64,000 nucleotides of DNA from contig NZ_JAPZTZ010000004.1 in NCBI RefSeq assembly GCF_027532945.1, forward strand, positions 124,001 through 188,000. Reading direction: 5' to 3'. The notes beneath the pieces were generated by a model, which was not told the origin of the DNA, did not search any database, and saw only the letters and a list, made by a program, of their open reading frames with translations. Of this stretch, positions 20,640 to 55,785 are shown piece by piece (the stretch's first letter is position 1; the number at the start of each line of letters is the position of its first letter). The position numbers and the translations under genes were made by a program. The stretch comes from Phreatobacter sp. (lineage in GTDB: Bacteria; Pseudomonadota; Alphaproteobacteria; Rhizobiales; Phreatobacteraceae).

Positions 20640-20815
20640 GACCTATCTCTCACCTCGGAGCTGCGACGTACGTCAGGACACACATATCCCCGGGGCCTTA
20701 TCGATCTTGAGGGAGCTGTCCCTGCCCTTGTCCGTGGACTTGGGCACCACGGCGCCCACCTACTTAGGTAGGTTCCCGGGATCGATCGTCCAACGGCAGA
20801 GTGGCTCCACTTGAA
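20640..20815 (+). ncRNA. ssrS: 6S RNA (SsrS), approximate ends
   Basis: Regulatory RNA that binds the housekeeping RNA polymerase holoenzyme. The gene lies directly upstream of and parallel to the 5-FCL gene, the classical ssrS context. It can fold as a long rod: the closing stem pairs GGAG and CTGC of 20657-20664 with GCAG (20796-20799) and CTCC (20805-20808); ATCGAT-containing and CCCGGG-containing segments pair in the middle; and the apical arm TGCCC-tt-GTCC loops to GGAC-tt-GGGCA. The downstream hairpin ACCTAC/GTAGGT and the 3' text CGTCCAACGGCA look like other alphaproteobacterial 6S RNAs. The ends are estimated. Confidence 0.7.
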
Positions 20816-22496: not shown

Positions 22497-23582
22497 ATGT
22501 CGCACAACACCTTCGGCCACCTGTTCCGTGTCACCACCTTCGGCGAGAGCCACGGCGTGGCGCTCGGCTGCGTCGTCGACGGATGCCCGCCGCGAATCCC
22601 GCTGACCGCCGAGGGCATCCAGGCCGATCTCGACCGCCGTCGCCCCGGCACCTCGCGCTTCACCACCCAACGCCGCGAGCCCGATGAGGTGAAGATCCTC
22701 TCCGGCGTGATGGTCGACGACGACGGCGTGCAGGTGACCACCGGCACGCCCATCGCGCTGATGATCGAGAACACCGACCAGCGCTCGAAGGACTATTCCG
22801 ACATCAAGGACAAATTCCGCCCCGGCCATGCCGACTTCACCTACGAGGCGAAATACGGCATCCGCGACTATCGCGGCGGCGGGCGCTCCTCCGCGCGCGA
22901 GACGGCGGCCCGTGTCGCCGCCGGCGCCATTGCCCGCAAGATCGTCCCCGGCCTGACCGTTCGCGGCGCGCTGGTGCAGATGGGCCCGCACGCCATCGAC
23001 CGCGACAAGTGGGACTGGGACCAGGTCGGCGCCAATCCGTTCTTTTGTCCCGACGCCGACAAGGCCGCCTTCTACGAGACCTATCTCGACAGCATCCGCA
23101 AGGCCGGCTCCTCCATCGGCGCCGTCATCGAGATCGTCGCCGAGGGCGTGCCGCCGGGCCTTGGCGCGCCGATCTACGGCAAGCTCGACGCCGAGATCGC
23201 CAGCGCACTCATGGGCATCAACGCCGTGAAGGGCGTCGAGATCGGCTCGGGCTTCGCCTCCGCGGCGCTCACCGGCGAGGAGAATGCCGACGAGATCCGC
23301 ATGGGCAATGACGGCGCCCCGCTGTTCCTGTCGAACCATGCCGGCGGCATCCTCGGCGGCATCTCGACGGGGCAGGCCGTGGTGGCCCGCTTCGCCGTGA
23401 AGCCGACCTCGTCGATCCTCACGCCGCGCCTGACGATCGACAAGAAGGGTGGCGAGACCGATATCCTCACCAAGGGCCGCCACGATCCCTGCGTCGGCAT
23501 CCGTGCCGTGCCGGTGGGCGAGGCCATGGTCGCCTGCGTGATCGCCGACCATTACCTGCGGAACCGCGGCCAGAACGGGTGA
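22497..23582 (+). CDS. aroC: Chorismate synthase
   Basis: Last common step of aromatic synthesis: EPSP to chorismate, FMN-dependent. The 361-residue protein starts [20 protein letters not shown], the first family signature. The second, [17 protein letters not shown], lies near 125-140, and the third, [17 protein letters not shown], near 335-350. The ATG at 22497 is supported by the canonical N-terminus; the frame is open about 84 bp further upstream. It lies 58 bp after the phosphoesterase gene. Confidence 0.97.
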
Positions 23583-23627: not shown

Positions 23628-23652
23628 GGATTTTCAGTTTGACTGAAAATCC
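23628..23652. promoter_or_regulatory. Perfect 10-bp inverted repeat upstream of the HTH-RibB gene
   Basis: GGATTTTCAG (23628-23637) and CTGAAAATCC (23643-23652) are exact inverted copies around a 5-bp centre. The element overlaps a possible -35 TTGACT (23639-23644), with a weak -10-like CATTTT 17 bp downstream. It ends 21 bp before the first ATG. There is no T-run, so an operator is more likely than a terminator. Confidence 0.6.
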
Positions 23653-23673
23653 TGCTGCGACCATTTTCCCCAC

Positions 23674-24999
23674 ATGAAGCTCGACATCTGGCTCGCGCGC
23701 GCCGGCATGACCCGGATGGCCTTCGCCCGCCGCCTCGGCGTGTCGCCGGCCACTGTCACGGCCCTGTGCAACGGTGATGCGCCCTGGATGTCCCGGGAGA
23801 CTGCCGCGCGCATTGCCGAGATCACGGCCGGCGCCGTCACGCCCAATGATTTTATCGGCCTGCCCGGGCCGCGCGATGAGGAGAGAACCATGCTCGAAGC
23901 CGCCGAACGCGTGAAGGCCGCCCTCGACGCCTTCGCCAAGGGGCAGATTGTCGTGGTGACCGACGATGACGACCGCGAGAACGAGGGCGACCTTATCGTC
24001 GCCGCCTCGCTGTGCACGCCGGAGCAGATGGCCTTCATCGTCCGCCATACCTCCGGCATCGTCTGCACGCCGCTGACCCTGCAGGAGGCGCAGCGCCTGC
24101 GCCTCGACCCCATGGTCTCCTCCAACGACTCACCCCACGGCACGGCCTTCACCGTCTCGGTGGACTACCGCCATGGCACCACCACCGGCATCTCCGCCGA
24201 TGACCGCACTGCGACTGTGCGCGCCCTCGCCAATCCCAATGTTGGCGCCGTCGACTTCGTCCGCCCCGGCCACATCTTTCCGCTGATTGCCAAGGACGGC
24301 GGCGTGCTCATGCGCTCCGGCCATACCGAGGCGGCGGTGGACCTCTGCAAGCTCGCCGGGCTCCCGCCCATCGGCGTCATCTGCGAGCTGGTGAATGACG
24401 ACGGCACGGTCACGCGCGGGCCGCAGGTGACGGCCTTCGCCGCCCAGCATGGTCTCGTGATGGTCTCGGTCGCCGACCTCATCAAATATCGCCAGGCCCG
24501 CGACCGCCTGGTCGAGCGCGCCGGCGAGTTCACCGTCGAGACGCCCTATGGCCCGGCCCGCGGCATCGCCTATCGCACCCCCTATGACCGGGTGGAGCAT
24601 CTGGCGGTGGTCTTCGGCGATATCGACGAGGCCGGCGCGACGCTGGTCCGGCTGCATCGCGAGACGGTACTGCGCGATGTCTTCGGCAAGAACCGCTCGC
24701 CGGACCGTGCCATGAAGAAGCTGGCGGAAAAGGGCGGCGTGCTGGTCTATCTGCGCGACGGCACGGCCGGTGTTCCGGCCCAGTCGCTCGCCGCGACCGC
24801 CCCGGGTGCCGACATTCACGAGACCCACGGCTCGGCGCGGATGCGGGATGACCAGTGGCGCGAGATCGGCCTCGGCGCGCAGATCCTGCGCGACCTTGGC
24901 GCCAACCGCATCCGGCTGCTCGCCTCCAAGACCCGCCACTATGTCGGCCTCGGCGGCTTCGGCATCGAGATCGTCTCGACCGAGATGCTGGAGGGGTAG
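23674..24999 (+). CDS. ribB: HTH-domain fused 3,4-dihydroxy-2-butanone-4-phosphate synthase with degenerate GTP cyclohydrolase II domain
   Basis: A 441-residue riboflavin-pathway protein with three parts. Residues 1-65 form a Cro/YdaS-like helix-turn-helix (MTRMAFARRLGVSPATVTAL). Residues about 73-280 are RibB, with the Mg/ribulose-5-phosphate site DDDDRENEGDL at 97-107, SSNDSPHGTAFTVSVD and KDGGVLMRSGHTEAAVDL. Residues about 285-441 resemble GTP cyclohydrolase II, but all zinc cysteines are missing (RLHRETVLRDVFG, NRSPDRAM), so this part should not be catalytic. ATG 23890 (Met73) has GAGGAGAG upstream and could give a shorter 369-residue RibB-only product. A perfect palindrome precedes the first ATG. 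Confidence 0.88.
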   Translation: MKLDIWLARAGMTRMAFARRLGVSPATVTALCNGDAPWMSRETAARIAEITAGAVTPNDFIGLPGPRDEERTMLEAAERVKAALDAFAKGQIVVVTDDDDRENEGDLIVAASLCTPEQMAFIVRHTSGIVCTPLTLQEAQRLRLDPMVSSNDSPHGTAFTVSVDYRHGTTTGISADDRTATVRALANPNVGAVDFVRPGHIFPLIAKDGGVLMRSGHTEAAVDLCKLAGLPPIGVICELVNDDGTVTRGPQVTAFAAQHGLVMVSVADLIKYRQARDRLVERAGEFTVETPYGPARGIAYRTPYDRVEHLAVVFGDIDEAGATLVRLHRETVLRDVFGKNRSPDRAMKKLAEKGGVLVYLRDGTAGVPAQSLAATAPGADIHETHGSARMRDDQWREIGLGAQILRDLGANRIRLLASKTRHYVGLGGFGIEIVSTEMLEG

Positions 25000-25051: not shown

Positions 25052-25207
25052 GGCCCCTCACCCTTCCCTCTCCCCGCTTGCGGGGAGAGGGGACTTCGAC
25101 GTCGCATATGCTCTTAACCCCGAGGGCCAAGCGGGCTGTTTTCCGCCGAGGGCGCAACGCTATTGCACCCTCTCCCCGCAAGCGGGGAGAGGGAAGGGTG
25201 AGGGGCC
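25052..25207. repeat. Large inverted repeat, REP-like element
   Basis: About 40-bp arms, GGCCCCTCACCCTTCCCTCT... (from 25052) and its exact inverse ending ...GAGGGGCC (25207), flank about 75 bp. Each arm also carries its own CCCCGC/GCGGGG hairpin. This is the common Hyphomicrobiales CCCTCTCCCCGC-type intergenic repeat, here as a full inverted pair between convergent genes. Confidence 0.8.
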
Positions 25208-55627: not shown

Positions 55628-55711
55628 CGTCCCAACTCCGACGAACAAACCGTTCGTCAAAACGAACAAAACGCTTGACGCTCTCTCCCGGCCGCCCTAG
55701 GACCCTTGCCC

Positions 55712-55772
55712 ACGACGTGGAGATTTGGCCGGCTGGCTTGCGAACCACGCTAAACCATTCGCTAAAAGGCCG
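55712..55772 (+). ncRNA. SAM-II riboswitch
   Basis: SAM-binding H-type pseudoknot upstream of metZ. P1 pairs CGTGG (55716-55720) with CCACG (55745-55749). The conserved loop AGATTTG, GCTTGC, CGCTAAAC and GCTAAAAGG elements of the class are present, and GGCC of the loop can pair with GGCC at about 55768-55771 to close the pseudoknot. The class is known ahead of metZ/metX/metA genes in alphaproteobacteria. Confidence 0.9.
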
Positions 55773-55785
55773 GGCGCGCGGGATC

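Follow-up and report, generated by a model that had tools for sequence, protein, structure and literature searches.

The locus examined here raises the question of whether an enzyme of riboflavin biosynthesis can also act as the transcriptional regulator of its own gene. In the window (the whole stretch of DNA that was analyzed, 64,000 nucleotides from Phreatobacter sp.), the plus-strand open reading frame at 23674–24999 encodes a single protein of 441 amino acids, uninterrupted in the ORF list and translation and covered by several Pfam domains. Its same-strand upstream neighbor (22497–23582), named from its sequence, is taken to be aroC (chorismate synthase), the start at ATG 22497 being our own choice. 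A first-pass annotation of this DNA had proposed that RibB is fused in frame to an N-terminal helix–turn–helix (HTH; residues 1–65) of a “Cro/YdaS-like” kind, that a 10-bp perfect inverted repeat lies at its promoter, and that the protein may bind this repeat as its own operator. Our comparative evidence supports the idea of such a self-regulating enzyme, the binding itself being inferred, and we refer to the protein as HTH–RibBX.

The in-frame HTH held, as indicated by the open reading frame and by Pfam. The domain (23674–23868, + strand) rests on Pfam, a predicted model, and Foldseek: residues 2–50 match HTH_31 (30.1 bits, cut-off 27) and HTH_26 (26.9 bits, cut-off 22), and a model of the HTH alone, which is better (pLDDT 86.2) than the moderate-confidence model of the full protein (mean pLDDT 68.1), has helices at residues 3–10, 14–21, 25–33, 41–50, and 57–61, the third being the predicted recognition helix (23746–23772, + strand). 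A five-helix fold with both profiles above cut-off is what we required of a Cro/C1-type (XRE) HTH. The “Cro/YdaS-like” label held in part: the Cro/C1 type was met, YdaS membership was rejected (PF15943 at 16.1 bits vs. a cut-off of 30), and the YdaS structure 8co2 is a weak Foldseek match, third in the ranking (E 0.027). For the HTH, Foldseek returned nothing at E < 0.001, its neighbors being mainly regulators and prophage proteins, together with HppE and cyanase (weak), and a comparison of the HTH profile with PDB sequences gave weak matches only (best E 0.027). In 12 genes of the genus, dN/dS was 0.147 for the HTH, 0.056 for RibB, and 0.183 for the C-terminal X domain (up to residue 388); the HTH is thus under purifying selection and therefore a maintained domain. 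This value and the conservation from the first residues onward rule out that the HTH is the product of a mis-called start.

As for the rest of the chain, the DHBP synthase (RibB) domain (residues 82–272; 23917–24489, + strand) is supported by Pfam, motifs, and alignment: PF00926 matches at 2.6e-84 over profile positions 2–191 of 191, as required to call a DHBP synthase, and both RibB motifs, DDDDRENEGD and RSGHTEA, can be read in the chain. It is followed by a GTP-cyclohydrolase-II-like X domain (GTP_cyclohydro2 in Pfam, residues 282–435; 24517–24978, + strand), in which the zinc cysteines of Mycobacterium tuberculosis RibBA (4i14) find no match in the alignment, a feature that we used to define RibBX. 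Since these cysteines are missing, the NCBIfam ribA model gives 42.6 bits for a cut-off of 205.85, and the whole-chain model is most similar in fold to 4i14 and to 6mnz (titled RibBX, from A. baumannii), the body of the protein is by sequence a RibBX; its RibB activity and the inactivity of its cyclohydrolase-like part are inferred from sequence alone. A stronger RibA candidate lies elsewhere in the same genome (C15, 178.5 bits), also below the cut-off of the ribA model.

The 91-bp gap between the aroC stop (23580–23582) and the ribB start contains the operator candidate GGATTTTCAGT-TTG-ACTGAAAATCC (23628–23652, unstranded), which rests on its palindromy, a genome scan, and conservation, and whose conserved core TTTCAGTTTGACTGAAA (23632–23648) reads TTTCAGT-TTG-ACTGAAA. 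The inverted repeat of the first-pass annotation held and is slightly longer than claimed, with 11-bp arms (23628–23638 and 23642–23652) that are 100% complementary around a 3-nt spacer; that it ends 21 bp upstream of ATG 23674 and overlaps a TTGACT −35 candidate held as well. With up to 2 mismatches allowed, the core pattern TTTCAGTNNNACTGAAA matches nowhere else in the 4.13 Mb of the genome, so no further regulon was found there at that tolerance. The claim that the gap lacks an FMN riboswitch was likewise borne out: Rfam gave no match in the 91 bp, its window-wide matches being just a 6S RNA and a SAM_alpha riboswitch located elsewhere, and the FMN riboswitch RF00050 is absent from both the window and the whole genome, so that ribB shows no sign of control by this riboswitch. 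No T run follows the palindrome, and a riboswitch, terminator, or leader RNA was ruled out on these two absences. The more specific rival, an RNA hairpin or terminator within an aroC read-through transcript, has in its favor that the 11-bp arms could pair and that aroC lies upstream, but we regard it as all but excluded: besides the missing T run and Rfam match, the letters are conserved and not merely the pairing, the site also precedes ribN, and it is absent from 48 sampled genes without this HTH, an aroC motif being found no more than 700 bp upstream in 33 of them.

It had also been suggested to look for the same architecture and palindrome in other genomes of the order, and both are found. 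A match to the protein exists in 371 of 397 genomes of the order, and in at least 73 (own genome included) the HTH is covered too, the match starting at the first residues. Scoring as operator any site with at most 2 mismatches to TTTCAGTNNNACTGAAA or TATTAGCNNNGCTAATA within 150 bp upstream, we found one upstream of 68 of these 73 genes (58 by TTTCAGTNNNACTGAAA, 10 by TATTAGCNNNGCTAATA), upstream of 0 of the 48 ribB genes sampled that lack this HTH, and in about 0.07% of shuffled upstream regions. The 48 genes (L076–L123) were hand-picked across families from the listed matches and are only a subset of the 371; L077 and L096 among them carry other HTHs, and L078 seems mis-anchored in aroC. 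A named-genome scan with HTH alignment, in which the best 80 of 206 relatives were kept, gave an operator in 77 of 80 loci; as the order and named sets overlap (136 of 153 genes being non-redundant), the combined figure is 128 of 136 non-redundant fusion genes. The palindrome is therefore beyond chance, being the sole match in its genome and recurring upstream of fusion genes, not of the sampled genes without this HTH and hardly ever in shuffles.

The five order-set fusion genes without a site within 2 mismatches are L027, L060, L063, L074, and L075, several of which show a variant dyad. Among the rows of the tree, HTH and site occur together in 68, the HTH without the site in 5, the site without the HTH in 0, and neither in 44. 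A phylogenetically independent test of the HTH–operator association is underpowered, with 6 usable pairs only, of which 3–5 agree and 0 oppose (median p 0.125). Genome-wide, TTTCAGTNNNACTGAAA at no more than 1 mismatch hits 66 places in 58 HTH-bearing genomes (forward counts), namely 49 at ribB, 9 at ribN-type genes, and 8 elsewhere, vs. 16 places for the reversed-pattern control; exact matches number 31, of which 26 are at ribB, 4 at ribN-type genes, and 1 elsewhere (G327 C8). Of 12 genomes scanned with the second pattern, TATTAGCNNNGCTAATA (class C), 9 have a single site, which lies at ribB every time. Exact sites are absent from 48 genomes that lack a first-residue match, and their 27 one-mismatch places (vs. 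17 in the control) include none at the listed ribB or riboswitch places, which are unlisted for some genomes.

The eight extra sites, spread over eight fusion genomes, were set aside as background-like given the 16 places of the control. As a separate observation, two loci (L155 1969–1985 and L156 1463–1479) in the related genomes G116 and G299 share a one-mismatch site, TTTCAGTTCATCTGAAA, in similar surroundings with no rib gene; this could be a third target or background. Another concerns L077 (G029), where RibB bears a different N-terminal HTH (HTH_31, 8.8e-13) and a different dyad of 17 bp, GTTGCCA-AAA-TGGCAAC, which shares the 7-3-7 geometry, stands about 20 bp ahead of the ORF, possibly an independent fusion with its own operator. 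In L096 (G255), the upstream frame of ribB holds a third HTH type (HTH_3, 7.6e-09), with no clear dyad.

If the HTH reads the palindrome, its recognition helix and the operator letters should change together, and across 155 loci they do. The first and sixth recognition-helix residues are known to contact bases in lambda Cro. Here, half-site base 2 is A in 21 of 22 half-sites with Gln25 and in 0 of 288 otherwise; base 4 departs from C in 38 of 44 with Gln30 vs. 2 of 266; and base 7 is C in 20 of 24 with Arg27 vs. 41 of 286. Operator letters thus change along with residues 25, 27, and 30, in counts that come from a redundant set and are not corrected for relatedness. Gln30 is paired with an altered base 4 in more than one group, each separate from the others (L062/L063; L165/L239/L240; L214; family f22), with exceptions in which C is kept in both half-sites (L048, L053) or in one (L059, L062). 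These data bear on a rival according to which the HTH is a structural or oligomerization part without DNA binding and the palindrome belongs to another regulator. The presence of two enzymes, HppE and cyanase, among the weak fold neighbors speaks for it; that operator and HTH co-occur and co-vary, and that the site is near-confined to ribB and ribN, speaks against it and makes it very unlikely. We consider it very likely, from comparative evidence and without binding data, that HTH–RibBX binds the palindrome at its own promoter.

The distribution of the fusion is wide. HTH identity to relatives in Phreatobacter is 83–95%, and named genera with the HTH comprise Phreatobacter, Bosea, Labrys, Azorhizobium, Xanthobacter, Methylobacterium, Ancylobacter, Pannonibacter, Pseudovibrio, Prosthecomicrobium, Pinisolibacter, and others, plus Zavarzinia. 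A class-wide draw gave an HTH match at E ≤ 1e-8 in 11 of 385 genomes, three of them within the order (own included); two others, L239 and L240, come from a different family of the class and are fused to RibB, and the remaining six were not found to be RibB fusions (L242 and L244–L247 inspected, L243 unresolved). In a quick tree of 119 enzyme parts, which leaves out rows L104 and L116 (motif variant), 9 HTH gains or losses are needed, at least 6 of them on well supported branches. On the side, L247 (1285–1533, − strand) is a stand-alone HTH relative of 82 amino acids that ends in VTPNDFF and lies divergently beside a repressor-like gene; since this arrangement resembles that of phage Cro genes, it is a possible source of the fused domain.

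How binding would act on transcription depends on where the operator sits. Taking the A of the ATG as +1, the long-product start codon (23674–23676, + strand) coincides with the predicted transcription start, on the basis of ATG conservation (ATG in 72 of the 73 order-set fusion genes, GTG in 1) and of −10/−35 spacing. The −35 candidate TTGACT (23639–23644, + strand) lies within the operator and its TTG is conserved in relatives; the −10 candidate CATTTT (23662–23667, + strand), which begins 17 bp after TTGACT, is a weak hexamer in the window, a weakness of the case, with T−12, A−11, and T−7 conserved in relatives. In 141 class A/B genes, TTG occupies −35 to −33 in 75–89%, and T−12, A−11, and T−7 are found in 69%, 85%, and 73%, respectively; with 1–2 bases of slack, both elements are present in 107 of 136 non-redundant genes vs. 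1.1% of shuffles. A Shine-Dalgarno of at least 4 letters precedes the N-terminal start in merely 5 of the 136. Because the promoter elements stand at −35 and −12 from the start codon, a leaderless mRNA is probable, with the operator lying over the promoter; a transcript starting at the A of the ATG is the simplest reading and a likely one, although inferred from promoter positions.

The operator overlaps the −35 in the genus of the window and covers the −10 in class C, a placement that favors occlusion of RNA polymerase. Negative autoregulation of ribB by an enzyme-repressor, extending to ribN in some species, is thus likely, with no experiment in hand and repression inferred from position. 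The alternative, that HTH–RibBX binds the site and mainly activates, a class B upstream site (~−52) recruiting RNA polymerase and a weaker −35 site tuning the response, draws support from most class B genes, in which a stronger site ends ~51–52 bp upstream and a weaker copy sits at −35, the commonest spacing being 28 bp. It is nevertheless unlikely, given the overlap with the −35 in the genus of the window and the coverage of the −10 in class C, where activation is improbable.

Under autorepression, HTH–RibBX would be enzyme and transcription factor in one chain; dimers, themselves inferred, would bind the 17-bp dyad TTTCAGT-N3-ACTGAAA over the promoter and block RNA polymerase, turning the gene off and keeping RibB supply at a set point. 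With transcription predicted to start at the A of the ATG, there would be no space for a riboswitch or a Shine-Dalgarno, and regulation would fall to the protein. This self-regulation is strongly supported on comparative grounds because HTH and operator co-occur, bases follow the helix, the site is near-confined to ribB, and ribN is an extra target. Of the marks of a self-regulating enzyme, a single chain that holds both a catalytic and a DNA-binding domain and a conserved operator at its own promoter (68 of 73) are present, and binding with an effect on transcription is inferred.

An internal start adds a further layer. The first-pass annotation had treated ATG 23674 and ATG 23890 as alternatives; they need not be, as the evidence suggests that both may be used. 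The sequence AGGAG (23879–23883) lies six bases before the in-frame ATG 23890, codon 73, the whole (23879–23892, + strand) being a probable start of an HTH-less RibBX. An in-frame start that lies 20–28 codons ahead of the RibB motif and follows a Shine-Dalgarno of 4 letters or more is present in 147 of the 153 genes (130 of the 136 non-redundant ones) vs. 55% of synonymous shuffles, and in HTH-less genes the commonest start stands 24 codons ahead of the motif (19 of 45), the same as ATG 23890. This recurrence suggests a second, HTH-less product; because one of six control windows also has frequent internal Shine-Dalgarno starts (71%), we hold this product with modest confidence only, as an inference for which the balance of evidence is slightly favorable.

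Beyond ribB, nine HTH-bearing genomes have an extra operator at an FMN riboswitch, exact in G116, G299, G327, and G352 and with one mismatch in G271, G286, G340, G364, and G387, located from 74 bp before to 3 bp inside the riboswitch 5′ end. The gene after the riboswitch encodes a two-EamA-domain transporter in 9 of 9 cases checked, which we take to be RibN from the riboswitch and the family; RibN has been described as riboswitch-linked in alphaproteobacteria (PMC4418817). Class A/B HTH-bearing genomes with a riboswitch number 14; of the 12 inspected (G087 and G365 being outside), 9 have a ribN-type gene, all with the site, and 3 have ribH (lumazine synthase) downstream (G279, G041, G198), none with it. 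Loci L143–L147 and L150 were picked through operator hits, in genomes already on the riboswitch list. In these species HTH–RibBX may thus also control the gene of a riboflavin importer, upstream of its FMN riboswitch. In the order, RF00050 occurs in 149 of 397 genomes, and in the genus in 1 of 12; most Proteobacteria examined elsewhere have one FMN-riboswitch pathway gene, ribB or ribH2 (PMC3766115). In family f22, 1 of 12 HTH-bearing genomes has the riboswitch vs. 5 of 7 listed without a first-residue match (riboswitch loci read in four of those seven only, L137–L140, without G163 and G394), a small sample from which it is possible that the HTH system replaces the riboswitch.

That the protein responds to substrate or flavin status, as had been suggested, has no experimental support and stays a suggestion; a ligand, if any, would most plausibly be a flavin or else the substrate of RibB, with either the RibB or the X domain as its sensor. 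A bolder reading, possible but less likely than not, makes HTH–RibBX a flavin-responsive autorepressor with its dead cyclohydrolase as sensor. One leaderless mRNA would give two proteins, HTH–RibBX from the 5′ AUG and RibBX from the internal Shine-Dalgarno start, and the repressor-to-enzyme ratio would depend on these two ways of initiating translation. Such a protein switch would do the work of a riboswitch at ribB and, jointly with the FMN riboswitch, at ribN.

How new is such an arrangement? Enzymes that regulate genes of their own pathway are familiar, BirA, PutA, and NadR among them; like HTH–RibBX, they join enzyme and regulator in one chain, but they belong to other pathways and use other DNA-binding folds, and HTH–RibBX is probably leaderless with two products. 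The archaeal RbkR, a riboflavin kinase fused to an HTH that regulates flavin genes, also pairs a flavin-pathway enzyme with a DNA-binding domain, but involves another enzyme in another domain of life, with an unrelated protein architecture. In Wolbachia, also an alphaproteobacterium, the transcription factors wBmxR1 and wBmxR2 bind the promoter of the RibB/RibA enzyme gene and activate a ribA reporter (PMC3518464); unlike HTH–RibBX, they are separate regulators, without fusion or binding to their own promoters. The FMN riboswitch (RF00050) likewise controls the flavin pathway and is found alongside the operator at the ribN-type genes of 9 genomes, but is RNA. Closest in sequence are the RibBX proteins of S. 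oneidensis, A. salmonicida, Bradyrhizobium ORS285, and A. baumannii (6mnz), which share RibB and a cyclohydrolase-like domain without zinc cysteines; in S. oneidensis, the X domain regulates RibB activity by an unknown mechanism (PMC10012899), and the sections of that work bearing on it mention neither an HTH nor a self-operator, both of which HTH–RibBX adds. The first reading of the locus had known of no described system of this kind in alphaproteobacteria, and we recognized no report of an HTH–RibB fusion in the literature searched (titles and abstract openings, subscription papers being mostly outside). While self-regulating enzymes are already known, an HTH–RibB fusion that probably acts on its own ribB promoter is thus likely undescribed.

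Bacterial riboflavin control has been described mainly through the FMN riboswitch, and in the present case the repressor appears to be part of the biosynthetic enzyme itself, in a putative circuit that extends over a large group of bacteria from soil and water, culturable environmental species included. The circuit suggests what the so far unexplained X domain of RibBX may do; the HTH and operator variants form a natural protein–DNA recognition series, and ribB is a possible two-product leaderless gene. Elsewhere in the window, downstream of ribB (25053–25206), two facing repeat copies were seen by eye around CTCCCCGC-GCGGGGAG. The 6S RNA (RF00013, 74.1 bits; 20655–20811, + strand) stands just ahead of an ORF that we take, by resemblance, to encode a 5-formyltetrahydrofolate cyclo-ligase, and the SAM_alpha riboswitch (RF00521, 56.3 bits) lies at 55707–55785 (+ strand).
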